Shown here: in pieces, positions 28,987-55,000 of the stretch | Position numbering within the stretch: position 1 is the stretch's first letter | Layout: each line of letters begins with the position of its first letter | Source: Sphingobium arseniciresistens | GTDB taxonomy: Bacteria; Pseudomonadota; Alphaproteobacteria; Sphingomonadales; Sphingomonadaceae | Direction of reading: 5' to 3' | Length of the DNA stretch: 64,000 bases | Assembly: GCA_029167225.1 (NCBI GenBank) | Contig: JARFNK010000019.1 | Coordinates: 40,749 to 104,748 of the forward strand | Program-made: the position numbers and the translations under genes | The notes under the pieces: model-generated | What the model was told of the DNA's origin: nothing | The model's database searches: none | The model's input: the letters and a program-made list of their open reading frames with translations, nothing else

Positions 28987-29011
28987 TGTCCTGCCCCTGA
29001 GGAACGCGGCC

Positions 29012-29920: not shown

Positions 29921-29935
29921 ACCAGGATTGAGCCC

Positions 29936-31018: not shown

Positions 31019-31039
31019 ACTTTGCCAGGCATCATGCCG

Positions 31040-32604: not shown

Positions 32605-32861
32605 GCCCGCCTCTTTGCCGCAGCATCGGGCATCTGAAAACCGGAACATGCATCTGCCCACCATGCAATCCGACCGGAGGGGAGGGGGCGGAAGCGAGAG
32701 TGCATCGGGACAGCCCGATAGGCGGATCGCCACGTGGTTGGATGCCGGGCGTGTTGGGACGACGGCAAACGGCACTCGGTGTTCGATGCCGCCGTCGACG
32801 CCGGTGGTGTCAGTCACGCCTCGCTGGCCGCAATGCGCCTTGGAACAATGGAGAACAATGC

Positions 32862-33704: not shown

Positions 33705-33764
33705 ATTCCCAACCACATTCAACATCAACGCCCGTCTTCGTTGGCCGGTGAAGGAGCATAGCCG

Positions 33765-34967: not shown

Positions 34968-34979
34968 GAGGCGCGCACC

Positions 34980-36263: not shown

Positions 36264-36302
36264 TTGATTTCCATTCCCGGTCAGCTCCCTCCGGAGGTTC
36301 CC

Positions 36303-36509
36303 ATGGCTCTGCCAGTCCCGCCCGCTTGCCTCTCACCGCTCAGAAGCCAGTTATCCTCCTTCGATCGAGCCTATCGCATTGCGCTGAACCTGCGGCGCGC
36401 CACCGGCGTTCCTCATTATGTCGTGGACGGCATCGCGCCTTTCCAGGCCTATCGCGTCACGACCCGTCCGCCGCCATGGCCCGACCGTTGGCTGGCGAAG
36501 GTCGCATGA
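36303..36509 (+). CDS. Small conserved protein, unknown
   Basis: 68 residues: MALPVPPACLSPLRSQLSSF, then YRIALNLRRATGVPHYVVDG, then AYRVTTRPP. The YVVDGIAPFQAYRV motif recurs in small sphingomonad element proteins, function unknown. GGAGG lies five bases before the ATG. It overlaps the PP-loop gene by four bases (ATGA), so they are coupled; it may be a partner of that enzyme. Confidence 0.68.
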   Translation: MALPVPPACLSPLRSQLSSFDRAYRIALNLRRATGVPHYVVDGIAPFQAYRVTTRPPPWPDRWLAKVA

Positions 36510-37456: not shown

Positions 37457-37651
37457 CGTGACGATCCCGATCTTTTGCTGGCGGGAAACGGTGCATTTCA
37501 ACGAATTGGCTATGCCTGACGGCTGGCATGATCGGCTTGAAGGCTGTCATTTGCGTTGAAATTATTGTATCCTTCAACCTGGCAGCATTTGGACGCGCCG
37601 ACTGCACTATCTCGATTGAGGGAACAGGCTGAAACATGGGGATGACCACCG

Positions 37652-37852
37652 ATGTCTGACGCGCGGCAAGCGAGCCTTTTTCCCGAAGATGATCTGCCAT
37701 CGACCCGTCGAGGTGCGTCCGCCCGCCACGATGGTGAATTTCACGCCGAGCCGGAAAGCCGGCCCGCCTCAATTCAGCTTGTGCTTCGACGCCATGGGAG
37801 ACTTGGGAACTGGGTAAAAAGCGTGCAGCAAAGGCTTTCCCGTTGGGTATGA
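37652..37852 (+). CDS. Short open frame, doubtful
   Basis: 66 residues: MSDARQASLFPEDDLPSTRR at the start and LVLRRHGRLGNWVKSVQQRL near the end. The QASLFPEDDLP part is a possible clamp-binding-type peptide and could be a remnant or a small real protein. No ribosome site is evident (ACCACCG before the ATG). I keep it at low confidence because the 200 bases before it hold nothing else. Confidence 0.35.
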   Translation: MSDARQASLFPEDDLPSTRRGASARHDGEFHAEPESRPASIQLVLRRHGRLGNWVKSVQQRLSRWV

Positions 37853-37907
37853 GTTTTCCATCTCCCGATGGGTCTTTCTGACGATCTCGCGATAAGCCGA
37901 CATCTTT

Positions 37908-38372
37908 ATGCATGGGCTGTCGGACCCTGCCGATGTGCTGCTGATCGATGTTTCCCCGGCCTTTGCGTCTACCAGCCTACCGCTCGGACGCTATTATCCC
38001 GTAATCCTGGAGACCATTGAGGAGCGGCAGGAGTTCGAGGCCTTCCTCCAGGCAGATCGGCCCGCGCCGATCGTGCCCGATCTGCTCGATCGCAGAGCGT
38101 CCGCGCTCACCGCCATCGATATCGTCTTCGCGCTCTTCGATCCCGCCATCGCGGGCTGGCCCTGGCTTCTTCTCTGCCATTGGCCCGCCGATCATGTCGG
38201 GCTGGCGGCAGGTCAGGGCGATATGTTCGCGCGCGGCGCCTACACCATCGAGATATTCCCAGATTCCGCCGCGCGGGCCGCCGCCATCAGCCAGACGCTC
38301 ACGATACTGGCGACGCACGAGTGTGTGCAGATCGTTCCGGTCACAACCACAACGCCAGCCGGAACCGCCTGA
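37908..38372 (+). CDS. Conserved element protein, unknown
   Basis: 154 residues beginning MHGLSDPADVLLIDVSPAFA. Mixed alpha/beta: LGRYYPVILETIEERQEFEA, LTAIDIVFALFDPAIAGWPW, LLLCHWPADHVGLAAGQGDM and a Thr-rich end. No domain recognised. The codon usage and ordered hydrophobic pattern suggest a real protein; the ribosome site is poor, so the start may be slightly different. Confidence 0.6.
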   Translation: MHGLSDPADVLLIDVSPAFASTSLPLGRYYPVILETIEERQEFEAFLQADRPAPIVPDLLDRRASALTAIDIVFALFDPAIAGWPWLLLCHWPADHVGLAAGQGDMFARGAYTIEIFPDSAARAAAISQTLTILATHECVQIVPVTTTTPAGTA

Positions 38373-38698
38373 TCCTGCGACGCGCCCCGCTACAGGCACT
38401 GCGGCGACCGTAGCGCCAGCGCGGCTACCGCCACGCCTCCAGCGTCGCTCCCCAGCCCACTTTCGGCCCGCACCGACCTCGCCCCGGCTCCTCGCCATGT
38501 CGCGGTGTCGCGCGGAGTTGTGGGCGGGGCGCGGCGTTGCGTGTCGGGCATGCGGGGTGGCGTTGCGCCAGAGGCAGCGGGAGTGCCGGGGCGGCAAGCG
38601 GGCGGTGTGTGGGGCCAGGGCGGGATACAGAGGAGAGAAGGACCGGTGAGGGAGTCGCCGGAAAATGGATTTCGAGCGACATTTGAAAGGTCAAGACG
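38373..38698. other. Gene-free GC-rich stretch before DUF736
   Basis: 326 bases with no supported gene. It holds GTAGC-gccagcgcg-GCTAC at about 38410-38428, a weak inverted repeat. The DUF736 promoter and leader should be here, but no clear -35/-10 pair was found. Confidence 0.45.
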
Positions 38699-39169
38699 AT
38701 GAACATCGGCGAAATCTTCAATCAGAACGGCCGCCTGACGGGCTCGATCGCCACCCGCACGATCGATCTCCCCCGCATCGGGCTGCGCAAGGTCATGAGT
38801 GAGAATGAGAAGGCGCCCGTCTTCGAGATCCTCGCGCTTAATGTCGCGCGTCGCTGGGTCCAGGTCGGCGCACTGTGGGAGGCCGCGTCCAAGCGTACCG
38901 GTGAGGTATTCCTTGCCGGCAACATCGACGACCCCAGCCTGCCCGAACCGCTGCCGATCGCGCTCTTCCCGGCCGATCATGGCGGATACATGGTCGCTTG
39001 GCGCCGGGACACCATGCGCTCCGATTTCGGCGGCGGCATGGGAACCAGCCGCACCAACTATGACGATCGCGGTCCGCGCGATCAGGGCGGCTTTGGCGAC
39101 AGCACCGCAGGTGCCGACGGCGAACTGACCGGCGCTGGTGCGCCGTTCGGCGAGGAGGACCCGTTCTGA
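38699..39169 (+). CDS. DUF736 family protein
   Basis: 156 residues. The N-terminal 105 match DUF736: MNIGEIFNQNGRLTGSIATR, KAPVFEILALNVARRWVQVG and EVFLAGNIDDPSLPEPLPIA. The last 50 residues are a Gly/Asp-rich disordered tail (NYDDRGPRDQGGFGDSTAGA). DUF736 proteins are a hallmark of conjugative elements in Alphaproteobacteria, function unknown. AAAGG lies eight bases before the ATG, and a strong intrinsic terminator follows. Confidence 0.9.
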   Translation: MNIGEIFNQNGRLTGSIATRTIDLPRIGLRKVMSENEKAPVFEILALNVARRWVQVGALWEAASKRTGEVFLAGNIDDPSLPEPLPIALFPADHGGYMVAWRRDTMRSDFGGGMGTSRTNYDDRGPRDQGGFGDSTAGADGELTGAGAPFGEEDPF

Positions 39170-39185
39170 TCACCGGTTGATCGAA

Positions 39186-39235
39186 CAAGTCCCGGGCCGG
39201 GGAGGCGTCAGGCTTCCCCGGCCCTTGTCTTTTCT
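39186..39235 (+). terminator. Intrinsic terminator after DUF736
   Basis: Stem GGGCCGGGGA (39194-39203) with TCCCCGGCCC (39215-39224), 11-base loop, followed by a T-rich run TTGTCTTTTCT. Flanking CAAG and CTTG extend the pairing. Confidence 0.85.
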
Positions 39236-39255
39236 CTTGTCTGAGGAGGCAGCCC

Positions 39256-39534
39256 ATGCCGCTCCCTTCGTTGCACGACCTCGCCCCCTTGGCCGATCTC
39301 TCCGCGCTCTGCGCCGCGATCATCGCCAGTCCTGCTATCCGGGACATGCTTTCGCCGCCGTTTCCCGCGGCTCATATTCCGGAAATCCCGGCCGGGATCA
39401 CCTGCGGCGAGATCATCGCGGCCATTTATGACCTGCTCGAGGGCACGCCCTTTGCCCCGCATGCCGCTGAAATCGTTGGGGCCGTCCTTACGCGCTCGGT
39501 CGCTTTCGGCGGCATCCGGGCGAGCATGCACTGA
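39256..39534 (+). CDS. Stand-alone copy of the N-terminal domain of the DUF2493 proteins downstream
   Basis: 92 residues: LADLSALCAAIIASPAIRDM, a Pro-rich link, then CGEIIAAIYDLLEGTPFAPH and AAEIVGAVLTRSVAFGG. The pattern D-L-x-A-L...P...I-x-A-I-x-D-L-L-x-x-T...A-x-E-I repeats that of residues 10-95 of the next protein (FADLPALFAEMTATPEFQRT and VIATIFDLLTDTRLDALAPE), so it looks like the first domain without the SLOG domain. GAGGAGG precedes the ATG, and the gene has its own terminator, so it is probably a deliberate short paralogue. Confidence 0.65.
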   Translation: MPLPSLHDLAPLADLSALCAAIIASPAIRDMLSPPFPAAHIPEIPAGITCGEIIAAIYDLLEGTPFAPHAAEIVGAVLTRSVAFGGIRASMH

Positions 39535-39546
39535 TCCGACGGGGGC

Positions 39547-39574
39547 GGGACGCCATCGCGTCTCGTCCCTTTTT
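39547..39574 (+). terminator. Intrinsic terminator
   Basis: GGGACG at 39547-39552 pairs with CGTCCC at 39564-39569 across an 11-base loop, followed by TTTTT. It lies directly before the ribosome site of the next gene. Confidence 0.75.
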
Positions 39575-39600
39575 CTTGCCCATCACGAAGGAGAAGTCCC

Positions 39601-40611
39601 GTGACCCAAGACCGTTCGCGCAGCATCAGCCGCTTCGCAGACCTGCCGGCGTTGTTCGCCGAGATGACGGCAACGCCGGAGTTCCAACGCACCTTTGGCG
39701 ATCCCATCCCGCTTTCGATCATCAGTCCCGGGGATGAACCGGGCGAGCATGACATGCCTGAACCGCTTCATGCCCAGGCGGATTGCGCCGGGGTGATCGC
39801 CACCATCTTCGACCTCCTGACCGACACTCGCCTCGATGCGCTCGCGCCCGAGATCGCGTGGGGCATGGTCAACAGCTTCCATTTTGTTGCCGGCAAGCTC
39901 GAACGACAGGAAGACATGCTGTCCGACGAACTGCGCGACATGATCCGCCGGACGGAGCCTTCCGAGGTATTCAATACCGAACTGGAGGAGAAGCAGCTGC
40001 TGTGTCAGTCGCTGACCGAACAGCGCGAGGCGGTAGAGTGCATGCGCGACTATGCCGCCGAAACTTTCCGTGCGCTATCGGGTCGCCCATGGTCTCCGGC
40101 GCGCGGATCACGCGTATCCAAGGTGGCGACCGCCACGCAAGTGTCGATACAGGATTTCCTGCGCGCGCGCGAGCTTGCGACACGCGAGCGGTACCGCCCC
40201 CGAGGACCGATCGTCATCGCCTCGGGCCATGCGGAATGGCATGACTGGCAACTCCTCTGGGACCGGCTCGATACTATCCTCGAGCGCATCCCGCACATGA
40301 CGCTGGTGACGACCGCGCAGCGCAAGGGTTTTGATGCGATCGTCGCCTCATGGGCAGGTAGTCGCGACGTGCAACTCGTGACCTATTCGTTGACGGGTTC
40401 GGGGCGCGGTGCACCCTTTGCCCGCAATCGCAAGCTGGTGGACTTGAAGCCTGTCGAAGCCCTGCTGGGCGAGGGATCAGGTATTCAGGCCAACCTGTAT
40501 CAGGCCCTGCGTAAGGCAGACGTCCCGATCCATGCGTTCCGCAAAGCGGATCAGGCTCCGGTCGAAAAGGTCGCTCCACCGCAACGGGGTCGGTTACGTC
40601 GGGCGGCGTAA
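39601..40611 (+). CDS. DUF2493 (SLOG) family protein, copy 1
   Basis: 336 residues from a GTG that follows AAGGAG by seven bases. The N-terminal helical domain (to about 190: VIATIFDLLTDTRLDALAPE, EAVECMRDYAAETFRALSGR) precedes a DUF2493/SLOG Rossmann domain: RPRGPIVIASGHAEWHDWQL, MTLVTTAQRKGFDAIVASWA, VQLVTYSLTGSGRGAPFARN and LKPVEALLGEG. SLOG domains bind nucleotides or their derivatives and often sense or produce signals, including in defence systems. It is a close paralogue of the gene at 41022. A strong terminator follows. Confidence 0.85.
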   Translation: MTQDRSRSISRFADLPALFAEMTATPEFQRTFGDPIPLSIISPGDEPGEHDMPEPLHAQADCAGVIATIFDLLTDTRLDALAPEIAWGMVNSFHFVAGKLERQEDMLSDELRDMIRRTEPSEVFNTELEEKQLLCQSLTEQREAVECMRDYAAETFRALSGRPWSPARGSRVSKVATATQVSIQDFLRARELATRERYRPRGPIVIASGHAEWHDWQLLWDRLDTILERIPHMTLVTTAQRKGFDAIVASWAGSRDVQLVTYSLTGSGRGAPFARNRKLVDLKPVEALLGEGSGIQANLYQALRKADVPIHAFRKADQAPVEKVAPPQRGRLRRAA

Positions 40612-40634
40612 CTTCTGCAAACAATCATCCTGTC

Positions 40635-40665
40635 GGGGACGGCGCTACGCGCGGTCCCCTTTTTT
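40635..40665 (+). terminator. Intrinsic terminator after DUF2493 copy 1
   Basis: GGGGAC (40635-40640) pairs with GTCCCC (40654-40659), with a partly pairing GC-rich loop, followed by six T. Confidence 0.9.
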
Positions 40666-40744
40666 ATGCTGGAGATGCTGGTTGCGGTGATGAGGTCAAA
40701 GGTTGGCAGTGCTCCCCCGCGAGGCGGGCGCCTGGAGGCACCCA

Positions 40745-40781
40745 TTTGCGAATCAGGGGCATCGAGCCCCAGATTCGCAAA
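40745..40781. repeat. Near-perfect 16-base inverted repeat
   Basis: TTTGCGAATCAGGGGC at 40745-40760 and GCCCCAGATTCGCAAA at 40766-40781 with a 5-base loop; one mismatch. No T-run follows on either strand. It stands in the 410-base gap between the DUF2493 copies and could be a protein-binding or RNA structure site. Confidence 0.7.
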
Positions 40782-40854
40782 GCCTCTTCTCTCTCTCAAG
40801 AATTCCAATGATGGCACGGGACCGCGTCGGCCTCAAGGACGACGGGGCCCCACC

Positions 40855-40916
40855 ATTTTTCTGGGCGGGTCGGGCGTCGCGTCTCTTTTGCGATGACAGT
40901 GGCCGCCCAGAAAAAT
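40855..40916. repeat. Perfect 14-base inverted repeat with inner pairing
   Basis: ATTTTTCTGGGCGG at 40855-40868 and CCGCCCAGAAAAAT at 40903-40916; the 34-base loop has an inner pairing (CGTCGC with GCGATG). A third pair, CCCCCAT near 40925 and ATGGGGG near 40990, surrounds CGCCGGCTTCGCCGG. Together the leader of the downstream DUF2493 gene can form a large fold. Confidence 0.7.
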
Positions 40917-41021
40917 CGTGACCCCCATCGCCGGCTTCGCCGGTCGCTGCGCGATCCTTGACCCCGCCGCTCGAAGCCCGTGCCCAATGGGGGACCTCTT
41001 TCGTTTCAAAAGGAGGTTCAC

Positions 41022-42002
41022 ATGACGAAGATCAACCGCAGCGTCCGCCCATTCACCGACATCGCCGAATTCATCGCGCAGGAGACAGCGGCCGCCGCCG
41101 ACGATTTCCACGCCGCCTTCGCTTCCAATCTCGAGGGCATCCGCATCGGGCGCGATGAGGAGGAGATGGCGACCGACATGCCCGATCCTAGGGAAGCGCA
41201 GCTCGCCGTCGAACTCATTGTCACGACGCTCTTCGACGTGCTGCGGGACAGCCGGTTGCAGCCTGCCGCCGAACGTCTCGCATGGGGGATCGTCAACAGT
41301 TTCCATCATGTCGCCGACCAGTGGGCGGGCCAAGCCGACAAGGCGACGCGCGATGTGCAGGACCTGCTACAGCGCGCCGACGGCAGCGAAATCCACGCCG
41401 TCGAACTCGAGCAGGCGCGCGACAATCTCGAATTTCTCGACGAAGCCACCGACGCCCTGCGGTGCATGCGCGACCATGCCGCCGACGTCTTCCACACCGA
41501 AACCGGACGGCCGTGGTCCGCGCCGAAGGGGTCGCTGGTGTCGAGCAAGCGCACTGCCTCGGTTATCGCCGCCACCGATTTCCTTGCCGCCCGCCGCCAG
41601 CGCCGCACCGACGCACACAACCCGCAAGGACCCATCGTGATCTTCTCAGGCGGGGCCGACACGTGGTTCGACAAGCGCCTCATCTGGGGGAAGCTCGACG
41701 AAGCGAAAGCGCGAAACCCGATGATGCTGCTGGCGACCACCGCACAGGACAAGGGGTGCGACGCCATGGCCGCAGCGTGGGCAGCCTCCCGCAAGGTGAA
41801 GCTCATCACATTCCGCCTCAGCGCAAAGCTGGGCAAGCGGGCGGGGTTCGTGCGCAACGAGCAGATGGTGGGCCTCCGACCCGTCGAAGCGCTGGTCTGC
41901 GAAGGGTCGGGACTGCAATCCCACCTCGCGCGTCTCGTCAAGGAGAAGCGTATCCCGGCGCGGTTCGTCAGGCTCAGCGATCAGGAATGGGAAGCGCAAT
42001 GA
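41022..42002 (+). CDS. DUF2493 (SLOG) family protein, copy 2
   Basis: 326 residues, parallel to copy 1 along its length: FTDIAEFIAQETAAAADDFH, ELIVTTLFDVLRDSRLQPAA, EATDALRCMRDHAADVFHTE, then the SLOG domain GPIVIFSGGADTWFDKRLIW, MMLLATTAQDKGCDAMAAAW, VKLITFRLSAKLGKRAGFVR and VGLRPVEALVCEG. AGGAGG precedes the ATG by six bases. The nucleotide-binding loop differs between copies (FSGGADT here, ASGHAEW in copy 1), which suggests different ligands. A terminator follows. Confidence 0.85.
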   Translation: MTKINRSVRPFTDIAEFIAQETAAAADDFHAAFASNLEGIRIGRDEEEMATDMPDPREAQLAVELIVTTLFDVLRDSRLQPAAERLAWGIVNSFHHVADQWAGQADKATRDVQDLLQRADGSEIHAVELEQARDNLEFLDEATDALRCMRDHAADVFHTETGRPWSAPKGSLVSSKRTASVIAATDFLAARRQRRTDAHNPQGPIVIFSGGADTWFDKRLIWGKLDEAKARNPMMLLATTAQDKGCDAMAAAWAASRKVKLITFRLSAKLGKRAGFVRNEQMVGLRPVEALVCEGSGLQSHLARLVKEKRIPARFVRLSDQEWEAQ

Positions 42003-42011
42003 GCTTGCCAA

Positions 42012-42050
42012 GAGGATCGGTCCGGTTCGCCGGGCCGGTCCTCATTTCTT
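42012..42050 (+). terminator. Intrinsic terminator after DUF2493 copy 2
   Basis: GAGGATCGGTCCGG pairs with CCGGGCCGGTCCTC (two G-U pairs) across a TTCG loop, followed by ATTTCTTT. Confidence 0.8.
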
Positions 42051-42080
42051 TCTTCGCGTGTAGCACTCGCCCCCGCTCAG

Positions 42081-42186
42081 GGACCCGCAGGCGGGTCCGT
42101 CGCGGGGCCGATGCGGAACCGCCAGGGCGGTCCCGGCCTCCTGCGCGCGGCTTCGCCGTGCTCGTCGCAGGGACACCCTTCGGGTG
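42081..42186. repeat. Cluster of four short hairpins
   Basis: GGACCCGC-AG-GCGGGTCC (42081-42098), ACCGCC-AG-GGCGGT (42118-42131), CGGC-TTC-GCCG (42148-42158) and CACCC-TTC-GGGTG (42174-42186), in the leader of the SLOG-like gene at 42284. Two have AG loops and two have TTC loops. No gene lies here. They may form a structured 5' leader; the role is unknown. Confidence 0.55.
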
Positions 42187-42283
42187 CGGTTTCGGCGGGG
42201 ATGGTTGAGGCGGCAAGGTCCGGTTTCGCCGCACAGAGGAGAGGAGGGTGGGGACATTTGGTTCATTCGAGGAGATTAAAGCC

Positions 42284-42796
42284 ATGTCCAAGGATATCCC
42301 TTCACACCTCTCCGGTTCGGCCGTCTTCATTTCAGGATCACTGTCCATTACCGGACTCCCCGAGCCTGTCACCGAGCGTATCGGCGGTATCGTCGAGCGC
42401 GCGCTTCCTGTCCTGATCGGGGATGCGCGCGGCGCGGATCGGGCAGTTCAACGCTACCTCTCGGACCGCGATGTCGATGCCGTCACGGTCTATTGCTCCG
42501 GCGAGGGACCACGCAACAATGTAGGCGAATGGCCGGTTCGGAACATTCCCTCATCCGCGAGAAAAGGCACTGCCGCCTACCACGCCCCGAAGGATGCGGC
42601 CATGGCGCAAGATGCGTCCTGCGGGTTCGTGATCTGGGACGGTCGCAGTCGGGGAAGCCTCGCCAATATCCACCGACTGGCAGCGCGCCGGTGCTTCATT
42701 CTCATCTGGTTTGGACCCGAAGAGCGGTTCGTCACGCTCCGATCGGATTCCGACAGGGACAGCTTTCTCGAGGCACATCCCTGCCGGAATCTGTGA
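42284..42796 (+). CDS. SLOG-like protein
   Basis: 170 residues: SGSAVFISGSLSITGLPEPV (Rossmann first strand and loop), ALPVLIGDARGADRAVQRYL (GDARGAD, the common SLOG/DUF2493 nucleotide-loop motif), AVTVYCSGEGPRNNVGEWPV, and AMAQDASCGFVIWDGRSRGS. The single-domain layout differs from the two-domain copies upstream. Family members bind nucleotides and may act as signal sensors or nucleotide hydrolases. AGGAGA precedes the ATG at 42284. Convergent with the small leftward gene at 42812. Confidence 0.78.
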   Translation: MSKDIPSHLSGSAVFISGSLSITGLPEPVTERIGGIVERALPVLIGDARGADRAVQRYLSDRDVDAVTVYCSGEGPRNNVGEWPVRNIPSSARKGTAAYHAPKDAAMAQDASCGFVIWDGRSRGSLANIHRLAARRCFILIWFGPEERFVTLRSDSDRDSFLEAHPCRNL

Positions 42797-42811
42797 TTGC
42801 CTGCGGCGCAA

Positions 42812-43054
42812 TCAGGTCGCAGCAGGCAATCCCCTGAGCGCCGTGAGCGCAGCACTGCCGCCAACCCGGATCGCCTGCGTGAGAAGCTCACGGAAGTCCT
42901 TTTCCGTGAGCCTTTCCACCGGCATCTCCGCTATCGTTACGGCATATTTACCTCGTAAGGCACGACGCGCGTTTTCCAGCTCATCGCTGATCTTGCGCTG
43001 ACGTGCTTCCAGATCGGCGAGCCGATCCCGTTCCGTCATCTTCGGCATTTCCAT
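42812..43054 (-). CDS. Small coiled-coil protein (TraD/DUF6437-like)
   Basis: 80 residues: MEMPKMTERDRLADLEARQR and KISDELENARRALRGKYAVT form a coiled coil, and LTEKDFRELLTQAIRVGGSA a terminal helix. It resembles the short TraD/TraC-type proteins beside relaxase genes on alphaproteobacterial elements, now partly called DUF6437 (from memory). No relaxase lies in the window, so the transfer role is uncertain. A second possible start is MTERDRLADLE. Confidence 0.65.
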   Translation of the reverse strand: MEMPKMTERDRLADLEARQRKISDELENARRALRGKYAVTIAEMPVERLTEKDFRELLTQAIRVGGSAALTALRGLPAAT

Positions 43055-43245
43055 CGTCCTTCCCCGATGGCCTGCCCGTCACCTGTAACTGTGCCACATT
43101 GACGGACCAGCGCAAGCTGGGATTGCCGCTTCCTGCGGAAACGGCGGGGCGTCACGCCTGGCTACTCCTTTCGATCTTCCACCGATCCATTCCGTCCACC
43201 GGCCCGCGGTGCCTGTCGCCTGCGGTCCCGTCCAAGGAGGCTTCC

Positions 43246-43593
43246 ATGCTTGCCATCGAACCCGATTACGACCGTTTCGTCGAAACCCATGAACCTCAAT
43301 ATTTCCATGCGCAGGCGAGAGGATTCGCGCTCATCCGCAAGATCGAGCGACACCTCAAGAGCGCCAATTCCTACGCTGGCCAGTATTACGGCTACACCGA
43401 TCACGAGACCGGCGATGTCGTGATTACCGGCGAGTGCGACGAGGAATACGAAGCCGAATGGAACAAGGCTTCGGAGCTTGCCCGCATGGCCGCCCGCTCC
43501 AATGCGTATTGGATTATTCGGGCGCAGGGCCGGGACGACGAGGCGGCGATGCTCATCCATGAAGCGTACGCGCAAGCCGCCGGGCAAGGCTAA
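43246..43593 (+). CDS. Conserved element protein, unknown
   Basis: 115 residues beginning MLAIEPDYDRFVETHEPQYF. Acidic with a helix-rich centre: ARGFALIRKIERHLKSANSY then YYGYTDHETGDVVITGECDE. No domain recognised. AAGGAGG lies five bases before the ATG, and a strong terminator follows. Confidence 0.7.
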   Translation: MLAIEPDYDRFVETHEPQYFHAQARGFALIRKIERHLKSANSYAGQYYGYTDHETGDVVITGECDEEYEAEWNKASELARMAARSNAYWIIRAQGRDDEAAMLIHEAYAQAAGQG

Positions 43594-43602
43594 TTGCACC
43601 TC

Positions 43603-43634
43603 GGGATCGGGCCTGACGCCCGGTCCCTTTTTTT
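43603..43634 (+). terminator. Intrinsic terminator
   Basis: GGGATCGGGC pairs with GCCCGGTCCC (one G-U) across a 5-base loop, followed by seven T. Confidence 0.92.
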
Positions 43635-43655
43635 GTATTTGGGGAGACCCCACCC

Positions 43656-43835
43656 ATGATCGACATTCCTCAAACCATCATGCCGATGCGCTCTGTAGAT
43701 TTGCAGCAAGAGTGCCCCGCGCCTGCCGGTGCGAGGCTGCGCAGCGCGAGCGCGCTGCGTAAGGCGGGACGCACGGCGCGAGGCCGTTTTGTAATGGACC
43801 CTACGCACGGGTGCTGCGGGCGCATTAGCTTGTAA
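43656..43835 (+). CDS. Short open frame, doubtful
   Basis: 59 residues: MIDIPQTIMPMRSVDLQQEC then PAPAGARLRSASALRKAGRT and RFVMDPTHGCCGRISL. It follows a GGGGAG sequence at eight bases. The composition is basic with three Cys, not obviously a domain. It could be a real small protein, but nothing else supports it. The rest of the 43594-44071 gap holds the terminator and the direct repeats listed separately. Confidence 0.3.
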   Translation: MIDIPQTIMPMRSVDLQQECPAPAGARLRSASALRKAGRTARGRFVMDPTHGCCGRISL

Positions 43836-43853
43836 AAACAAGGATATATGGCC

Positions 43854-43970
43854 GTGATACGCGTCTTACGCCGATCCAGAAGGCTGTAGTACGCGGACCA
43901 CGACGCCGACGAAGGCAGTCCTATCCCGTTGAGTTACCTTGAAATATCTTGTGGTACGCGTCATACGCGG
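43854..43970. repeat. Three GTRRTACGCG direct repeats
   Basis: GTGATACGCG at 43854, GTAGTACGCG at 43886 and GTGGTACGCG at 43951: starts 32 and 65 bases apart, i.e. a period near 32.4 bases (about three helical turns) with the third period skipped. Copies 1 and 3 extend to 20 bases with 17 matches (GTGATACGCGTCTTACGCCG and GTGGTACGCGTCATACGCGG). They lie in the 240 bases before the gene at 44072 and could be an operator, a partition site or an iteron remnant. Confidence 0.55.
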
Positions 43971-44071
43971 TTTCAGGATCTGTTCGACCGCCACCTTCAT
44001 CAAAAAGGCTGGACTCGCTGCTGCATGCCCGAAATCATGGTCTCCTCGCTCCAGCACGAAGGACATCACCC

Positions 44072-44398
44072 ATGGCTGAGTTGAACGAGGAGTACATCAG
44101 CGAACTTCGTCGGGCGGTGGTCAAGGCCATCTGCGAAGTATCGGCGGAAAGGCAACAATCCAATGCGGCGGGGAAGGGCGACACCCTTTATATCGGCTCG
44201 GCCGAAGTTTGTCAGATGCTCACGCTTCTCCTGACTGAATTTCTGGAAGGGGTCCCCGATCTCGATACGCCCGGCAATGTTCGGCGTATGGCGGACATCG
44301 TGGCCAAAAAGATCAGATTGGGGATCGGCGAGATCCGGCGGCACCGCCAGGAGACAGGCGGAGAACCGTTGCCGTCGATCATCATCAGAGGCAACTGA
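44072..44398 (+). CDS. Small conserved protein, unknown
   Basis: 108 residues: MAELNEEYISELRRAVVKAI, GSAEVCQMLTLLLTEFLEGV, VRRMADIVAKKIRLGIGEIR. All helical, perhaps dimerising. No family recognised. AAGGA lies before the ATG at 44072, about 8 bases away. It is convergent with the HNH nuclease gene and ends 30 bases before it. The repeats upstream may be its regulatory site. Confidence 0.65.
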   Translation: MAELNEEYISELRRAVVKAICEVSAERQQSNAAGKGDTLYIGSAEVCQMLTLLLTEFLEGVPDLDTPGNVRRMADIVAKKIRLGIGEIRRHRQETGGEPLPSIIIRGN

Positions 44399-44428
44399 CC
44401 CTCACAATCCGGCCCGATTTCCTGTCGT

Positions 44429-45268
44429 TCACAGAAATGCCGGCAAATCCTCGTTCGTTAAATAATCGATTAGGGCCGGATTGCGTGTGACCGCGTCGTA
44501 GAAGAGGTGGTGCCAGCTATTGGCGGTGGGATGTGCATGCCCCTCCTGCCACGCCGCGATGTTGTCGACGACGACAAGTCCCTTTGATCGCATCTTGCTG
44601 ACATTTCGCAACAGGCGGCGATGCTCGTTTCGGAAGAAGCGGATGTAGCGTCGCGCAACCTCGAGCTCCCGAATATGCGTGGTCACCAGCGCCGTCTCTT
44701 CGGCGGTCAAGTCGGGATGGGGCGTCAGGCTGAAGGTCGGCGTCGCAAAGGGCGCGGCGATTTCCAGCTGCAAAATCTGGGGCAGCGAGAAGGCGTCGAA
44801 ATAGGGATGGATGAAAAAGCGCGGGGACACGGCGTTCCCGGTTTTTTCCTTCTTCCGTCGCTGGCAAGGATCGCACATTGGGGTCAGATTGGCTGGCGTG
44901 ATCGCGAATTGGGGATAGCGCCCCTTTGGCAGATAGTGGTCCAGCGTTTCCGGGGGTGTGGGGCTACCGCACGCCGGACAGATGTCGAGGTCGTGATCTC
45001 GAAGGGCCTCGAGCATGGCGCCCTGCGCCGAACCCTCGGCGGGGTGGCTATAGAGGTTCTTGAACGCCCCTCCCTTAGCTTCGGCAGCGGGCCAGGTCTG
45101 CACCTGCGCCGGGGACCCTCCATGGGCGATATACACGCCAACCCGCACCTTCCACTCGGCGGCGATCAATTGGAAGAAACTCTTGTTAGGTTCCTTGGTC
45201 CGCTCCGCCACGACCGCATCGATCAACGCGAGGCAGTCGGCGCCCGGCACGGGCAAAAGCATTACCAT
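44429..45268 (-). CDS. HNH endonuclease, PtuB-like partner of the AAA ATPase
   Basis: 279 residues. The HNH site is CPACGSPTPPETLDHYLPKG followed by RYPQFAITPANLTPMCDPC and QRRKKEKTG: two CxxC pairs holding zinc around D-H and N-x-x-P motifs, as in PtuB-type and retron-linked HNH nucleases. The first 120 residues (DCLALIDAVVAERTKEPNKS, EWKVRVGVYIAHGGSPAQVQ) have an unknown fold; the last 100 are helical (EVARRYIRFFRNEHRRLLRN). The gene starts within the ATPase stop (ATGGTAATG), so translation is coupled; ATG 45268 or 45262 may be used. It probably cuts invading nucleic acid when the ATPase is triggered. Confidence 0.82.
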   Translation of the reverse strand: MVMLLPVPGADCLALIDAVVAERTKEPNKSFFQLIAAEWKVRVGVYIAHGGSPAQVQTWPAAEAKGGAFKNLYSHPAEGSAQGAMLEALRDHDLDICPACGSPTPPETLDHYLPKGRYPQFAITPANLTPMCDPCQRRKKEKTGNAVSPRFFIHPYFDAFSLPQILQLEIAAPFATPTFSLTPHPDLTAEETALVTTHIRELEVARRYIRFFRNEHRRLLRNVSKMRSKGLVVVDNIAAWQEGHAHPTANSWHHLFYDAVTRNPALIDYLTNEDLPAFL

Positions 45269-46971
45269 CCTTCGCGCTCCATCCCTTGAATCTGGATGGC
45301 GAGTTCCTCGTTGATATCCTTGCCGAGGGCCTCGATCAGGGCTTCGGCGGACCCCAGTTCCTCGAGCTTCTCGGTTATCCATCGCTCGAAAGGCTTCGAC
45401 GCTTCGCTGTCGCCGAACACATAGGAACTGATCCTTTGCATGTCGCCACCAAAGGTCTGAAAGGGCGGTGTCCGAATCGACAACCCGTCCTTTGTCCGCG
45501 CCATCACATGCACGCAGTCGGTGGGAATTTCTCGCACGGTGACCAGCGAATGGGTGGCCAGCAGCGCCTTGGAATTGAACCGGTCGAGGATGGTCTTGAG
45601 CATATCGATGAACTGGATTTCCAGTGTCGGATGCAGAAACAGCTCCGGTTCGTCGATCAGGATCAGGCTATCGCGGCGGATTGCGCCCAGGATATTGATG
45701 ACAATAAAGGAGAACAGTTTCTGGCCCGAGCTCAGTTCAACCATCTCGCCGTCGTGGAAGAAGGTCACGCCATCGGCGGCATTGAGTGCATCGCGGATTT
45801 TGTCGATCTTCAGTTCCTCGATCCGGTCGGAACTGATCGGCACATATCGCTCCCCGTCGACGTCGAACGCGAGATCGTCGAGAAGCCCCGCATCGCTGTA
45901 AAGCCGGCTGGCTCTACCGTCCGGGACGCCGATGTTGACGGTGGCGTAATCGAACGCAAAGGCCGTGCGAAGAACCTTTTCAACGGTCGCCAACTTGTTC
46001 GCCCAGTTGCGCAAGCCCTTGTAGCGCAGATCATCCGTCAGGCAGTCCAGCAGAGATGCGGCGGCGTTCTTCTTGGGCGCCTGGTGGGTAAGCGATATTC
46101 CGCCAAGCTTCCCTTTTGTCCTGCTGATCGAACGCCCGCGAAAGCCGAAATACCGGTAGACTTCCTTATCCTGAAGCTCGTGCGCCTCCAGGTCCACCGG
46201 AAAACGCTCGAAGGGGCTGTAGGAGACGACGACGATCTGACTGAGGTTTGGCTTTTCGACAAATCCGATGTCACGCTCGTCCTTTTTGCGACCGTCGTCG
46301 AGCCAATCCTGCACCAATTGATGCAGGAGTTGTGATTTGCCGACTCCATTGGGACCGATCAGTACGTTAACGCTATGGGGCAGCAACCCGCGCTGGCTGA
46401 ACTTCAAATTGAGTGTGGAAAGCGCGCCGTACACGTCGTTGAAGCGGAAGCCCAGGTCGAGCACCGCCATCGAGGCCGCAGCGAAAATCTTCCATCCGTC
46501 CAGATAGGATTTGATCTCACCGCGCTCGCGCTGGAGGGATTTACGGAAGGCCTGGGTATCGATCAACGCAAGCGCGTCGGGATCTTGCTCTACATAAACA
46601 AGGTAGCTTGCGTCTCGCAATTGCTGGGCTGCCTGCTTTGCCGCTGCCTCGCCAAGACGGTCGCGCAATTGCTCATAAAAACTGATCTCACCCGGCAGTG
46701 ACAGATACCGCGTGCCCGGTATCGGAAAAATTCCGTTCCACCCTTCCTCGCGCAGCTTATCGAGCTCGCGTTCGCTGGAATCGGCGCCCTCCAGCATCAA
46801 TTTCAGATTTCCCAGTTCGAGCCTTTTGCCCTCGATGCGGCAAGTCGTGGCGAACGTGGTCTTGTTGCCATAATCATCCCAATTGTCCGCGAGCAACTCC
46901 AGGACATCGCCCTCCATGTCGGGAGCAGGGGTAACCCGTCGGCTCTTGCGGCCGAGATATACGATCTTCAT
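45262..46971 (-). CDS. AAA (SMC/OLD-like) ATPase with N-terminal extension, PtuA-like
   Basis: 569 residues. After about 210 residues of unknown fold (MKIVYLGRKSRRVTPAPDME; LPGEISFYEQLRDRLGEAAA) comes an ABC-type ATPase: Walker A NVLIGPNGVGKSQLLHQLVQ, signature-like VELSSGQKLFSFIVINIL, Walker B LILIDEPELFLHPTLEIQF and the H-loop ALLATHSLVTVREIP. There is no Toprim domain, which separates it from OLD nucleases; the nuclease is supplied by the overlapping HNH gene, the Septu arrangement. The N-terminal part is longer than I expect for PtuA and may be a sensor. The ATG at 46971 follows GGGG by six bases; 46983 is possible. Confidence 0.85.
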   Translation of the reverse strand: MKIVYLGRKSRRVTPAPDMEGDVLELLADNWDDYGNKTTFATTCRIEGKRLELGNLKLMLEGADSSERELDKLREEGWNGIFPIPGTRYLSLPGEISFYEQLRDRLGEAAAKQAAQQLRDASYLVYVEQDPDALALIDTQAFRKSLQRERGEIKSYLDGWKIFAAASMAVLDLGFRFNDVYGALSTLNLKFSQRGLLPHSVNVLIGPNGVGKSQLLHQLVQDWLDDGRKKDERDIGFVEKPNLSQIVVVSYSPFERFPVDLEAHELQDKEVYRYFGFRGRSISRTKGKLGGISLTHQAPKKNAAASLLDCLTDDLRYKGLRNWANKLATVEKVLRTAFAFDYATVNIGVPDGRASRLYSDAGLLDDLAFDVDGERYVPISSDRIEELKIDKIRDALNAADGVTFFHDGEMVELSSGQKLFSFIVINILGAIRRDSLILIDEPELFLHPTLEIQFIDMLKTILDRFNSKALLATHSLVTVREIPTDCVHVMARTKDGLSIRTPPFQTFGGDMQRISSYVFGDSEASKPFERWITEKLEELGSAEALIEALGKDINEELAIQIQGMEREGW

Positions 46972-48522: not shown

Positions 48523-49032
48523 CTACCGCGCAGCCTCTTCGACAGCCTGGCGCAAGCGGTCCCCGGCATCCGCAGACACGATCTGAACCGTCCTTTTGCC
48601 GGTGGCTGGATCGGTCTGATGGAAGCGGAATTCCTGGCCCTTGAGCGGGCCACTGATCAGATCGGCAATCATGATCTCCCGCTGCTTGTTCTCCGCATTT
48701 GCGAACGGCGCGATCAGGTCAACCAGCCAGATCTGGTCGCCGCCTTTCCATTCATCAAGGCTCAGCCGGTTCTCCGGTTCGACCATGCCTTTGTCGAGCT
48801 TGGCCGCTGCTGTGGGCGAACATTTCGCCCACAGCGCAAGTCCCACCGGCTGCTGGCCGTCGCGGAACATGTAGAACTGCTCATGCAGGAGCGCTGGCAT
48901 GAGCAGCCACTCGATGTCGGCAATACTGAAACTCCGGTGCAGGGGAGACTGCGTGAGGAGCCAGGTCATTTCCCCGAGGAAATGGCTGACGGTCAATGGC
49001 GCAGCAGTGGTGGTATCCTGTTTCGTATTCAT
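48523..49032 (-). CDS. HlyC-type RTX toxin-activating lysine acyltransferase
   Basis: 169 residues. HlyC family features: LGEMTWLLTQSPLHRSFSIA near the start (the conserved His), IEWLLMPALLHEQFYMFRDG, QPVGLALWAKCSPTAAAKLD, then GGDQIWLVDLIAPFANAENK (catalytic-type Asp) and GQEFRFHQTDPATGK near the end. The enzyme uses acyl-ACP to acylate lysines of an RTX protein. It lies 24 bases after the giant RTX gene and on the same strand; normally hlyC precedes hlyA, so the order is reversed. No type I secretion genes are seen in the window. Confidence 0.88.
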   Translation of the reverse strand: MNTKQDTTTAAPLTVSHFLGEMTWLLTQSPLHRSFSIADIEWLLMPALLHEQFYMFRDGQQPVGLALWAKCSPTAAAKLDKGMVEPENRLSLDEWKGGDQIWLVDLIAPFANAENKQREIMIADLISGPLKGQEFRFHQTDPATGKRTVQIVSADAGDRLRQAVEEAAR

Positions 49033-49056: not shown

Positions 49057-52000
49057 TCAGGCAGCCGAAGCCGTTAGCATATCATAGCTGTGGAATTGAT
49101 CGACGAGCTTCCCGGTCAATGCACCATCGCCTCCATTGGCGCCGAAGGTACTCATGGCCTGGGCAAGTCGGGCTGCAGCCTGCGTCGCTCCGGTATGTGT
49201 CGAGGAGGGATCGAACGCGAGTGCGACATTGCCGATCGTCGCGGTGACGCCATTGTCCTTCGTATAGATCGCAGTCGTGAGCGGTAGGTTACGACCGATT
49301 TTCGCGGTCTCGCCGATGGTCGTGCTCGCCAGCGATATCTCCTTGATGCCGAGATCGGCAAGGCCATGAAGTTCGCCTTCCTCAGAGACGCCGTTATGGT
49401 TTGCATCCTGCCAGACCTTAAGATCACCGAACCGGGCATCCGTCGCGTTGATCTTTCCGTCCTTGTTGGCATCGAGCACGCCCAGCCCATCCCAGGCACT
49501 CTTGGCATTTTCCTTCTCGGCAAGGAATGAGATTTCGGAGGCATGGGTGATCACACCGTCGCCGTTGCGATCAATGACCAGCATCCCGTCATCGTCAGCG
49601 ACCCACCCGGTATCGTCAGCGATGTCATCGCCATCCATGTCGAATTTCGCGTCGGTCTTGCTGCGCTTGCGCGCTTCGAGCCCATCCCCATCGACATCGA
49701 CGAGGATCGTGGACAACATGCCCACCTTCGTGTTGTCGAGCTCGATGATGGCAGCCGGCCCGATGAGACCTGCGGACGCCGCGATGGCCCCTGCCGCGTC
49801 GCGCGGAATAATATGGGCGCCGTCGGAGGCTCCTGTCACCCGGAAGCGTTTTGCTTTTCCAGCCCATTCTCCGGTCTTGTATTCCGGATCGACCAGCGCC
49901 GAAAGGGCCTTGAACGCGAGGCCGACGTCGAGCAGCGTTCCCGAAGTGCCGTTGTCCAAGGTATAGGCCGAACGGTTATAGGTGATGTTTTGCCCAGCGG
50001 CAGTCGCCTCGCCGGTAGCCGTGCCCTGCAACGCAAACGAGTTGAGCCCAGCTTCAGTGAGGCTCAGCAGTTCACCGGCATCACTTGTACCGTTGCTGTT
50101 GCGGTCGAACCAGAGCTTGAACTCGACAAAGCGGGCATCTCCCGCGTCGAGCAGACCGTTGGCGTTGGTGTCGAAGGCGGCAAGGCCTTCAAGGTCCGTC
50201 TTCGCGCCCTGCTTATCCTGAAGGAACGAGATTTCCTTGATGTCGTCGATGACGCCATTTCCGTTGCGCTCAAGGACAAGGAAGGCATCATCGCTCTCGA
50301 TCCACCCGGTCTTGTCCGCGACGCCATCACCGTTCATGTCGAAGCGGGTCAGGCTTTCGGCGAGCGACACAAGTGATTTTCCATCGCCATCGAAATCCAG
50401 GACGATGGGGGCGGCAATGCTGGAAGGTTGAACCGGTTGTTCCGGCCCATCCTGGGGAGCATCGCTTCCGGGTTGGTCGACGTCGTCCCCATCCAAAACA
50501 GCGGCCGGAACGTCCTGGCTTCCGCCGGTAACGGTCTGGCCACTTTCCGGGCCGCCGTCCGTTGACGGCGACGCAGCGGTCTCGGTCTGTGTCGGCGGGC
50601 TTGCCTCAGGCGAGGCGTCTGGATCTTCGCTATCGGCAACCGGATCGAAGGAGAGGATCACGTCGGCCAGATCGCGTGCCGTTCCATCGGCGAGCAGATA
50701 GTCCGATGTTGCCGTGACGATGTTGCCGGTTTGGCCAAGATCGTTACCCGTTTCATGCATGGTCAGGTTGATCTGTACGATACCTGCCTCGGTCAGGGAT
50801 TTGAGTTCACCTGTATCGCTGACGCCGTTCTGGTTCGCATCTTGCCAGATGAGGAACTCGCCGAAGCGCGCGTCACCGGCGTCGAGCAATCCATTCTCGT
50901 TGCTGTCAAATGCGCGCAGACCTTCAAGGTCGGTCAGGGCATTGACGGCATCATTGATGAAGCTGACCTCCGAGATATCGTCGATCGCGCCATTGGCATT
51001 GCGGTCAAGCGCGAGGAAGCCGTCATCCGCAGCCACCCATCCCGTTCGATCGGCAGCACCATCGCTATCCATATCGAAAGACACGCTCGAAGTCGCGTAG
51101 TCCACCAGTTCGATCCCGTCTCCATCAAGGTCGAGAACGATCGGAGGCACGCTTGAACTGCGACGCATGAATGTGACGGAGAAAGGTACGACCGTCGTAC
51201 GGCCCGTGTTGTCCGTGATATTTAGGTTGAATGTCACCTCCACACTAGTGGTCACGCGAACGCCGTTGATCTTGGTGCCGCCCTCCCATTCGCCCCCATT
51301 GCCTTCTCCGGGCGTCGAGAATGAGATATTCCCTGCTGCGTTGACCGAGATCATCGGATACCCCGATGCGTCGATTTCCGAGCCACCGCCCGAAGTCGTA
51401 TTGAACGGACGGGCTGCCCAGCTGGAAATGCTGTATGTCAGCGGCGACCCCTCCGGATCAGAGGCGATAGCCTGAATGATACTGCCACCGTTACGCTGGG
51501 CGGATACCCAATAGGTGGCGTTGTTCTTGAAGATGATTGGGCCATCACTGCCATTGTACGTCTTATAGGACGACTGGAACACGGGATATTCAGGCGCATC
51601 GCGAATGGTCGCCGTGAAGTTGGCGGTGAAATTGTAATTTCCATTCGTGGGATCGACGGCGCGGATCTGAAGCACCTGTGTTGCCAGCGAGGTATCCCGA
51701 ACCGCGACCGTGGTTTCGATCGGTTCCGGCCCCCAGCCGTAGTCGACCCACTCCGTCACGGTCTCGTAGCGCGTGGTCAACGCCTCATAATCGGCGGAGC
51801 CGGTTTTGAATACGAGCTTGCCGTCGGACGTGATCTCCCAAATCCCAGATTGCGTCGAGCCATCAGCGAAGCTCCACTGCATATTTTTCTGCTCGGGGTC
51901 CCGAAGCATCAGATTGCGCAGGTTGAACTGCTCATGGAAGGGCTGCAATCCACTTGCTTCGTCAGTGGCGCCGGAAGCGCTGACCAGCGCATGCGGCTCG

Positions 52001-55000
52001 TTGATGTCTCCCATCTGGATCCAGTAGTTCGCCGCAGTCTCGCGGAATCCAGCATTATTCTGATTGTCCCTGGCCCGAATGACGTAGTTCCGGCCGGTCT
52101 CGCCCGCGGTATCGAAGTCGAGCGCCGCATTGACGCGAACCGCACCTGTCACATTATCGATCGCATAGCGGCCGTCCCAGGTGGAGGCCGAATAGTTCGT
52201 GCCGTCCCAGAACCAGTAGCGTTGCTGGCTGAACGCCGTCGCGCCGCTGTCAGGGTCGCTCGCGTTCACGGTGTCGAAGACGGTTCCGACTGCCGTGTTC
52301 TCATTGATGACGTTGAGAGTACGGCCAGTCAAAGCGTTCTGCTCATTCTTGTCTTCGATGTAGACCGAGTAGCTGAACGGCGAGGACTCGGCACCGGAGG
52401 CATCGCGCGCGACCAGCGTCAGCGTCGCGACCCGGGCCTCCTTGATACCGTCACCGTCGGTATCGAAGTTCATGTTCGCGCTGGTCCCGAACTGGCCCAT
52501 ATTGGCGCGTAGCCAATCGGACGTGAAGTTCACGCCGGGCGAGAAGGCGATGTGGTTGTTCGAGAAGGTCTGGAACCATCCGTTCTCGTTACCGCCCACG
52601 ATATAGAGTTGGGGCGCCACGCCGTCCGGGTCGGCCATGGTGAAGCGGGCGATCAGATTGCCGGCATGCGGGCTATCGCCGCCCACTGTCTCGGAAAAGA
52701 CGTTCGATGCCTCCAGCACAAGATTATTGGGCTTCTCGTTCACGTCGGAGATGAAGACCTGAACGAGGGTCGGCGCCGAAACCGCACCGCTGCTGTCGAC
52801 TGCCTCTACCGACACGTTCGCTATGTGCGCTTCGAGGCGTCCATCGCCGCTCCAGTCATTGATGCCGTAGCCTGCCGCACGCAGGGCTTCGTAATCGTAC
52901 GAAACACCTGTGGCAAAGCGGATCTGGTTGCCGACGATCGTGAACCAGTTTCCGGGGTTCCCGTCGGTCGCAAAGCGCAGTGTCGACGTAGTGCCATCGG
53001 GATCGCTCAGCGCAAGGGTGGCGACGGTCTTGCCAGCCACCGCTGGGTTTGCTCCCAACCCGGTTTCGTCAAAGAATGACCAGACCGTCGCGCCTCCTCC
53101 CGGCGCATTGGGCGTTTCATTGACGTTGGTGAGCGGCACGACGATTTGCTTGTCGTAATATTGTCCGGCAGCATCGAACACACGAACGGTGATGGTGTTG
53201 GCCGCGTCGCGACCGTTTGCCTCATAGTCGAGGTTCGCGCCGCCATTGGCGACAAGTAAGCGGCTCGTGTTTGCCGTGTCGAGGACGTAGCGACCGCCTG
53301 CGTTGTTGATGAGCTGGAAGCTCGTGGGCGCCGCAATTCCCTCGGCCGTGTCGGGATCGATGCCCGTGAGGGTCCCAACGAATGTTCCGTTTGCAGCGTT
53401 TTCCGCGATGGAGCCGCTGAGCGTGATATTTGTAGGCTTGCCGTTCACGACCACGGCGAGGTTTGACCATGCCGATGTCCGCGTCGAGGTGCCGTCCTTT
53501 GTCTGGACGGCAAAACTGAGAGCGGCGTTTTCATAACGTCCAGCAGGGACCGCCATGCGCAAACCAGTGAGTTGCGCTGACGTCAGTCGCCACCATCCGG
53601 AGGTGGCTTCCCAGATCCCGACCGCTGCACCTGCAGCATTGACCAGCGAGTATCCGCTGGGCAGGCCCTTGACGAGAACATCGACAGTTTCCGAACCATC
53701 GGTATCAGGCGTGATAGCCGCCACGGATATGGCAATGTTTGCGCCGGCAGTACCGCCGGCGCTCGCAAGCGTCGAGAAGCTGCCATTGTCCGCCGTCGGC
53801 GCGATACTGAGTGCGATGCCGCCAAGGTCGTTGGCCGTGCGTGTCGTTCCCCGGATCTTCGCCTGCAACTGCAGGGGAAGCGTGCCGCCCGGCAACAAAT
53901 GCGTGCTGGCGTTGGGCGCCAACGTCAGGGTCACGGTGCGGTTTCCTGCCGCGTCAGGCGTGCCGTAATTGACGCCGGTCACGTAGCTGGCAAGGTTATA
54001 GCCACCCAACGCGGTCAGCGTGAGGTCGATGCTGCTCGCCGGGATGGCGATGCCGAGTCCCTGCAGATCCTCGTACCAGGCGCGCGTGGCAAAGCTGATC
54101 GTGGTCGTTCCGTTGTCGAGCGCTTCAGTCGCGCTGAGCGAGACGGTATCGCTGATCTTGGGAGGGCTCAGGCGTCCCCAATAGTCCTCCATGCCGTTGG
54201 CAAAGGCGATGTTAGTCGCGCGAAGAGTGTCCATCTGGTCCTGCGTCGTCGGACGGTTCAGGGCAGGTATCCCAGCCATAAGCGTAACGAGTGCATCCAC
54301 ATTCACCGGCAGGGTAGCCCTGTCGGTGCCATCGGAGATCAGATCGATCTTGAAATAGTTTGCCGGCAGATTTCGGTCGGGAAGCGTGAACCAGTTCTCC
54401 ACCGTCACCGTGCCCTCGGCCCCGGCTTGGCCGAGCAGCGTCAGGCGCAGGTGATTGCCCGTTCCGCTCGGTTGGCCCTGGTCGTCCACCCGGTCGAACC
54501 AGATGTCCGTGTAGGTCACTGAACTGTCCAGGGCGACGTGATCGAAATTGTCTCCGCTCGCATCGAAATTCTTGATGCGATCGTTGCCCTGGTTTCGGCC
54601 GATGAAATAGGTGTCGTTGTCGGCGCCGCCGATCAGGACATCATTACCGGCGCCCCCATCGAGATAGTCGTCTCCGGCCTCGGCATCGAGCGTATCGTCT
54701 CCCGCGCCGCCAATGAGGAAGTCATTCCCAGCGCCGCCCTTGATCGTGTCGTTGCCTGCGCCGCCCCTCAAGACATCCGCGCCGAGCGAGCCGATCAGGT
54801 TGTCCGCCTGGTTCGAACCTTCGACAAGTTCGATTCCGCTCAGCACATCGCCCTCGGCTTGTCCGCCGGTACCCGTTCCGGCAGCAAGGTTGACGCTCAC
54901 CGCCGTGGTGGATGCTGCGTAGGTCACGCCGTCGAAACCGGCACCGCCGGTCAGTTGGTCGGCACCGTCGCCGCCTTCGAGATAATCATCTCCATCGCCG

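Follow-up and report, generated by a model that had tools for sequence, protein, structure and literature searches.

A 64,000-nucleotide stretch of a Sphingobium arseniciresistens contig (JARFNK010000019.1; hereafter the window) carries two overlapping genes, one for an ATPase and one for a protein with an HNH nuclease core, which raises the question of what kind of system the two form. The original prediction, made from the sequence, described them as a divergent Septu-like defence system and proposed that a long extension at the start of the ATPase may define a new sensor subtype. We find that the pair is, by profile match over the full length of both proteins, PDC-M01, a catalogued candidate in the PADLOC database, and that the same family takes in the Ea59 and Ea31 proteins of phage lambda. 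The pair is probably a member of this PDC-M01 (Ea59-Ea31) family, a sister branch of Septu PtuAB, and would act as an ATPase-gated nuclease against invaders. What is observed comprises the order and coupling of the genes, catalytic motifs that are all intact, an ATPase body of PtuA type beside an HNH protein of PtuB type, pairing that is constant across the sampled loci, trees that agree, and carriage by phages and plasmids. The features concerned, in window coordinates, are:

45262..46971, reverse strand: ATPase gene (PDC-M01A, Ea59-like, PtuA-like), 569 amino acids, matched by PDLC04238 over residues 1-569 (E 1.4e-241)
46468..46971, reverse strand: N-terminal, family-wide domain of the ATPase, residues 1-168, from profile and family alignments
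46333..46356, reverse strand: Walker A, GPNGVGKS, residues 206-213, from sequence and alignment
45721..45735, reverse strand: ABC signature, LSSGQ, residues 413-417, from sequence and alignment
45649..45666, reverse strand: Walker B, LILIDE, residues 436-441, from sequence and alignment
45550..45552, reverse strand: H-loop histidine, H474, from sequence and alignment
45260..45268, reverse strand: overlap ATGGTAATG coupling the ATPase and HNH genes, read from the sequence
44429..45268, reverse strand: HNH protein gene (PDC-M01B, Ea31-like, PtuB-like), 279 amino acids, candidate start at 45268 or 45262
44852..44980, reverse strand: zinc/HNH core of the HNH protein, C97..C100..D110-H111..N127..C132..C135..K139, from alignment and comparison with PtuB

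When the two proteins were compared with the PADLOC models, the ATPase was matched by PDC-M01A (PDLC04238, 801 bits, residues 1-569 on model positions 1-564) and the HNH protein by PDC-M01B (PDLC04270, E 7.9e-106, 351.5 bits, residues 1-278). As profile matches, these are far beyond chance. Both proteins thus match end to end, the genes are adjacent and overlapping, and no difference from PDC-M01 was found. The best Septu model for the ATPase, PtuA1 PDLC00282 (E 7.9e-42, 141.7 bits), was outranked by PDC-M01A, and no PtuB model was present among the best 25 of the 44 PADLOC families for the HNH protein. PDLC00282, filed as Septu PtuA1, itself has the PDC-M01A layout including the N-terminal domain, and the Septu and PDC-M01 sets of PADLOC therefore overlap. 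In the literature, cited here and below from the portions of each source that were available, PDC-M01 is an unpublished candidate in a 2025 study of the Bacillus cereus group, whose 343 duplicated pairs include 41 in which PDC-M01 and Septu were called together (PMC11811056), and a list entry in PMC11758030.

The predicted likeness to Septu holds, for type I, in gene order, coupling, fold and catalytic residues. The overlap ATGGTAATG contains the ATPase stop codon TAA (45262-45264), and two ATG codons, at 45268 and 45262, are both possible starts of the HNH gene; the start methionine of the ATPase aligns with that of its nearest relative. No Toprim family was matched (Pfam, E <= 1), so that the C-terminal Toprim of OLD and Gabija GajA is not seen here, and the description as an SMC/OLD-type ATPase without Toprim, followed by an overlapping HNH gene in ptuA-ptuB order, was correct. 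So was the claim that all four ATPase motifs are intact: G206, G211, K212, S414, G416, D440, E441 and H474 are invariant in 61/61 aligned sequences, a set selected for near full-length coverage (as were alignments A2, A3 and A4). Similarly, C97, C100, H111, N127, C132 and C135 of the HNH protein are invariant in 57 sequences. Pfam recognised AAA_21 and AAA_15 above cut-off in the ATPase and the HNH family below cut-off in its partner. In Foldseek searches, ATPase residues 170-568 share the PtuA fold, and the HNH protein as a whole resembles PtuB in fold (match over residues 2-264); PtuA of type I-A retrons (Ec78/Eco7, Ec83) gave the best rows for the ATPase and retron PtuB a near-best row for the HNH protein. 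The rows shown from a viral structure library were generic ATPases, and the ABC/SMC-type ATPase core is also common to PARIS AriA and other AAA_15/OLD-type ATPases. An extra N-terminal part of 120 residues had been assigned to the HNH protein. The extra part exists but is overstated at that length, since the PtuB fold match begins at residue 2 and the offset amounts to about 36-60 residues: the HNH histidine is H111 in the window protein versus H75 in a published Septu PtuB (PMC13096335), and the first zinc cysteine is C97 versus approximately residue 35 in retron PtuB chains.

Where the ATPase does depart from canonical PtuA is in the region preceding Walker A. It has 205 residues there, close to the roughly 210 first estimated, whereas 26-32 precede Walker A in 8 canonical PtuA collected via TIGR02646 (L138 being cut by the locus start) and ~80-90 in retron PtuA. 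Among the 61 aligned relatives the length ranges from 149 to 229 (median 197), and the N-terminal domain is found in all 61 of them. It contains a DxWxD[Y/F]-like motif at residues 29-34, and D33, Y99 and R148 are invariant in 48 sequences. The domain profile had no match in any of the canonical PtuA/PtuB loci (L131-L139). In Pfam, no family was matched by two or more of the 48 members scanned (E <= 0.1); a PDB sequence search returned nothing below E 0.045, and the rows of whole-ATPase structure searches scarcely cover residues 1-157. In 398 genomes, a search with the domain alone gave matches in 9, and those checked were family ATPases or fragments. PADLOC does know the domain: PDLC00282, one of its PtuA1 models, was matched by 44/48 N-terminal fragments, at model positions 1-152 in the examples shown. 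Thus, by alignment, the long extension does set the ATPase apart from canonical PtuA, yet it is common to the PDC-M01 family. The proposal that it defines a new sensor subtype is unsupported, because the PDC-M01 match is full-length and the domain is family-wide and already part of PDLC00282.

How constant is the pair among its relatives? A scan of the viral database IMG/VR with the window ATPase alone gave no match, whereas a scan with profile A1 yielded 96 relatives among 187 pattern matches. Eighty were kept, of which 77 scored above 150 bits with the family profile, the remainder being other AAA ATPases; 11 relatives were 37-49% identical in the best segment. A scan of genome contigs gave at least 14 matches, 8 of those listed above 150 bits and the rest other AAA ATPases. 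Counting that of the window, loci L001-L130 hold 90 distinct ATPase open reading frames (ORFs) that score above 150 bits, after removal of 14 identical ones. The family profile was matched from within its first 60 positions in 84 of these; of the six others, three are cut by the locus end (L090, L098, L104), one is a fragment (L113) and two are divergent or differently started (L114, L025). In 84/90 loci the ATPase gene has a same-strand HNH gene as its direct neighbour, and in the remaining six the sequence stops 0-3 bases past the ATPase gene. Among weaker ATPase ORFs, 3/25 lie in a locus with an HNH match. Distances between ATPase bodies and between HNH proteins in 55 loci were correlated (rank r 0.79, with 0/500 permutations as high), as would be expected if the two genes are inherited as a unit.

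The comparison with PtuA and PtuB in trees, which the original prediction had called for, placed the family on its own branch in both. In a tree of the AAA core, from which the N-terminal domain was left out, 35 family members fall on one side of a branch with a Shimodaira-Hasegawa-like approximate likelihood ratio test (SH-aLRT) support of 89, and 8 canonical PtuA form a separate group (SH-aLRT 95); it is a quick tree with long branches, whose deep order is unsure. It was built from 28 of the 60 A2 relatives and 6 others, with L137, a canonical PtuA in two pieces, dropped. The HNH tree, built from 26 of the 56 A3 relatives, 4 others and 4 canonical PtuB, without L133-L137, splits 31 family members from the canonical PtuB with a support of 99, again on long branches. 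Each tree joins the window protein to a copy on a Rhizobium leguminosarum plasmid (97 for the ATPase, 98 for the HNH protein), and the two lie within a set holding viral-contig copies (96 and 96).

In genomes the distribution is patchy. At E <= 0.001, the models PDLC04238, PDLC04235, PDLC00282 and PDLC04264 matched 9, 10, 5 and 5 of 14 control genomes, respectively. The PDC-M01A models also detect the common AAA core at this threshold, and only strong, long matches were therefore used; at E <= 1e-10, PDLC04238 matched 0/14 controls. Within the order, 30/147 genomes were matched by PDLC04238 at E <= 0.001, 4 of which pass 1e-10 with the window's own among them. Within the class, 8/385 were matched at E <= 1e-10, again including the window's own. 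The PtuA1 model PDLC00283 had no match anywhere in 289 genomes, controls included.

The best-known member of PDC-M01, absent from the original prediction, is Ea59-Ea31 of phage lambda. A phage search with the N-terminal domain of one relative retrieved lambda Ea59 with 64% identity over 154 residues. In NC_001416, ea59 (25396-26973, annotated as an AAA family ATPase) and ea31 (24509-25399, annotated as an HNH endonuclease) overlap by 4 bases and lie beside int in the b region. Ea59 scores 667 bits on the PDC-M01A model PDLC04235 and 610 bits on PtuA1 PDLC00282, and Ea31 scores 220 bits on the PDC-M01B model PDLC04264; by these scores Ea59-Ea31 is a full-length member of the family. The domain layout is that of the window pair, N-terminal domain included, but identity is low (21% over 569 columns for the full-length ATPases, E 3e-25; 23% over 180 columns for the HNH proteins, E 1e-13) and the two pairs belong to different subclades. 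DE3 retains only a truncated ea59. Near-identical DNA to ea59-ea31 is present in 91/5426 E. coli genomes, 68 of them with at least 80% of the pair, and several of those listed are laboratory strains. No published function for Ea59 or Ea31 was found in the available portions of papers that name them (including PMC10695390, PMC3224144, PMC6207430, PMC12455587 and PMC13119297), nor did searches of such text reveal a published link between Ea59-Ea31 and Septu.

Carriage on phages could have a reason other than defence. Phage HNH proteins often serve packaging, and the pair might serve the element itself, in replication, packaging or repair, with an HNH nuclease loaded by the ATPase onto the element's own DNA. 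Its surroundings were sampled at five viral loci (10 proteins). At L055 the pair is flanked by tail tape-measure and minor tail genes, and at L051 a J-like tail gene lies ~1.3 kb upstream; both loci, together with the position of the lambda copy beside int, favour such a role. At L052 and L067, genes for a phage-family DNA polymerase, ParB-like and HNH proteins are nearby, and at L056 the only neighbour match is to a family of unknown function. We nevertheless consider service to the element unlikely: the nearest solved folds are PtuA and PtuB, the distribution in the class is patchy, and lambda growth did not require ea59 or ea31 in CRISPR interference (PMC10695390), both genes having also been deleted from a working lambda prophage (PMC13119297). 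The varying neighbours at the five loci would also suit a selfish cassette made of a homing-type HNH nuclease and an ATPase helper. Phages often carry HNH proteins as free-standing homing nucleases. Here, however, the HNH protein is PtuB-like in fold throughout and is paired with the ATPase wherever downstream DNA is present, which makes a selfish cassette very improbable. On one further viral contig (L066:4641-6239), a second AAA ATPase ORF, a weak match of 27 bits, lies ~0.3 kb past the HNH gene.

A mobile-element setting had also been predicted for the window pair, and this is borne out both by the relatives on phages and plasmids and by the adjoining DNA. Window positions 25094-44401 resemble the Sphingobium plasmid pBSY17_1 (5 pieces, 36% of a 25-kb query, 82% identity), on which the next genes at the match encode a CopG regulator, a type IV coupling protein and a MobF relaxase. 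With the plasmid-related DNA stopping at 44401 and the end of the HNH gene at 44429, the pair borders a plasmid-type backbone. In tblastn searches, 106 plasmid records matched the ATPase, with 80% or more of the query covered in 24; the nearest was the R. leguminosarum plasmid (57% identity). The HNH protein was matched by 68 records. This location and these counts would fit a competition or maintenance system, one that excludes other plasmids or punishes plasmid loss and protects against phages only secondarily. Such a system seems quite improbable, given that the pair is also frequent on phage contigs, on which maintaining a plasmid would have little point, and that no antitoxin-like small gene was seen travelling with it, although no systematic search was made. 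The pair was found in a single copy in the assembly (6.6 Mb, 120 contigs, contamination estimate 6%), on the contig denoted C32. Its G+C content is ~57-61%, compared with 63-67% for the backbone at 38-43 kb and 59-61% for the DNA downstream. A search for promoter-like sites gave 0, versus 1.2 in shuffles. Elsewhere in the window, two tandem YspA-type SLOG genes (YAcAr, PF10686; 39601-40611 and 41025-42002, forward strand) lie in the plasmid-type backbone, with two DUF2493 genes at the corresponding position of pBSY17_1. An HlyC-type acyltransferase gene (48526-49032, reverse strand) adjoins an RTX-like ORF of 4904 amino acids (49057-63771, reverse strand).

How, then, would a PDC-M01 pair work as a defence nuclease? 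Because of its homology, an ATPase-gated HNH nuclease is expected. One published Septu depends on both its Walker and its H-N-H residues, and once infection has occurred it cleaves tRNA-Tyr (PMC13096335). Retron-Eco7 PtuAB degrades tRNA-Tyr and is restrained by reverse transcriptase (RT) and multicopy single-stranded DNA (msDNA), and another Septu is reported to act on nicked DNA (PMC11555353); in a review, Ec83 PtuAB is described as held inactive by msDNA and a Septu complex as 6:2 (PMC12948488). Targets differ among Septu and retron PtuAB. By analogy with Septu, the ATPase would oligomerise and hold the HNH protein, and during infection it would license nucleic-acid cleavage by its partner, of phage DNA or of host tRNA, stopping the invader or the infected cell. 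Unlike in type I-A retrons, no reverse-transcriptase (RVT) family was matched among 20 chosen ORFs at 23-49 kb around the pair (Pfam, E <= 0.01). A restraint or trigger would therefore come from the proteins themselves or from the host, and the N-terminal domain is the obvious candidate: judging from anatomy, it may be a built-in restraint or trigger, as RT-msDNA is for retron PtuAB. A sensor role for it is a guess. More broadly, and tentatively, the family could be a separate, widespread PtuAB-type class in which a cis sensor or brake of ~160 N-terminal residues replaces RT-msDNA, and a lambda lysogen would thus possess, in Ea59-Ea31, an unrecognised superinfection-exclusion or host-defence system; we think this possible, though somewhat doubtful.

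The N-terminal domain may also occur outside the pair. PDC-S34, another single-gene defence candidate in PADLOC (PDLC05000, 416 positions), matches the domain in 29/48 members, at model positions ~300-415 in 7/10 fragments looked at, and the front part of PDC-S34 is a HAD hydrolase (4/4 proteins scanned). PDC-S34 matches were obtained in 16/200, 1/6 and 4/118 genomes (the last including the 1 again), and none found reached beyond model position 300; loci L149-L160 and L168 gave no N-terminal domain match better than E 0.84 (L169-L171 being outside this test). The PADLOC model therefore suggests, and only the model, that the domain stands behind a HAD hydrolase in PDC-S34. On two related Streptomyces plasmids (L164:2968-5337 and L167), the N-terminal domain and the AAA part are in different frames, and at L167 a shortened HNH gene adjoins an IS3 element. 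A three-gene system with a separate domain gene was considered for these and rejected, the two out-of-frame pieces being decay.

Several results weigh against reading the window pair as a relative of Septu with a defence function. The HNH protein is not TIGR02646, as no NCBIfam family was matched at E <= 1, and in the AAA-core tree, quick and long-branched as it is, canonical PtuA and the PDC-M01 family are separated. The available literature names the family as a prediction and yielded no defence assay of any of its members, nor any report of exclusion by lambda ea59/ea31; the dispensability of both genes for lambda growth counts on this side too. As for the N-terminal domain, the evidence that it is a fast-evolving sensor was weak and was set aside. 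In 110 pairs with an AAA identity of 50-97%, pairs that are not independent, it is less conserved than the AAA part in 110/110 (means 0.46 and 0.57), but there are parts that evolve faster, as the HNH flanks diverge further (0.33 and 0.35). Its distances show a partial correlation of 0.11 with those of the HNH protein given the AAA part, versus 0.48 for the AAA part, and thus nothing indicates that the domain touches the nuclease.

On its own, the window pair is one more example of a catalogued candidate, and its value lies in the connection with lambda. Lambda lysogens with and without ea59-ea31 can readily be made, and a deletion prophage has already been described (PMC13119297). Should protection be seen, PDC-M01 would gain a validated member and the lambda b region a partial explanation, and the pair would serve as a model of PtuAB nuclease control in the absence of a retron.

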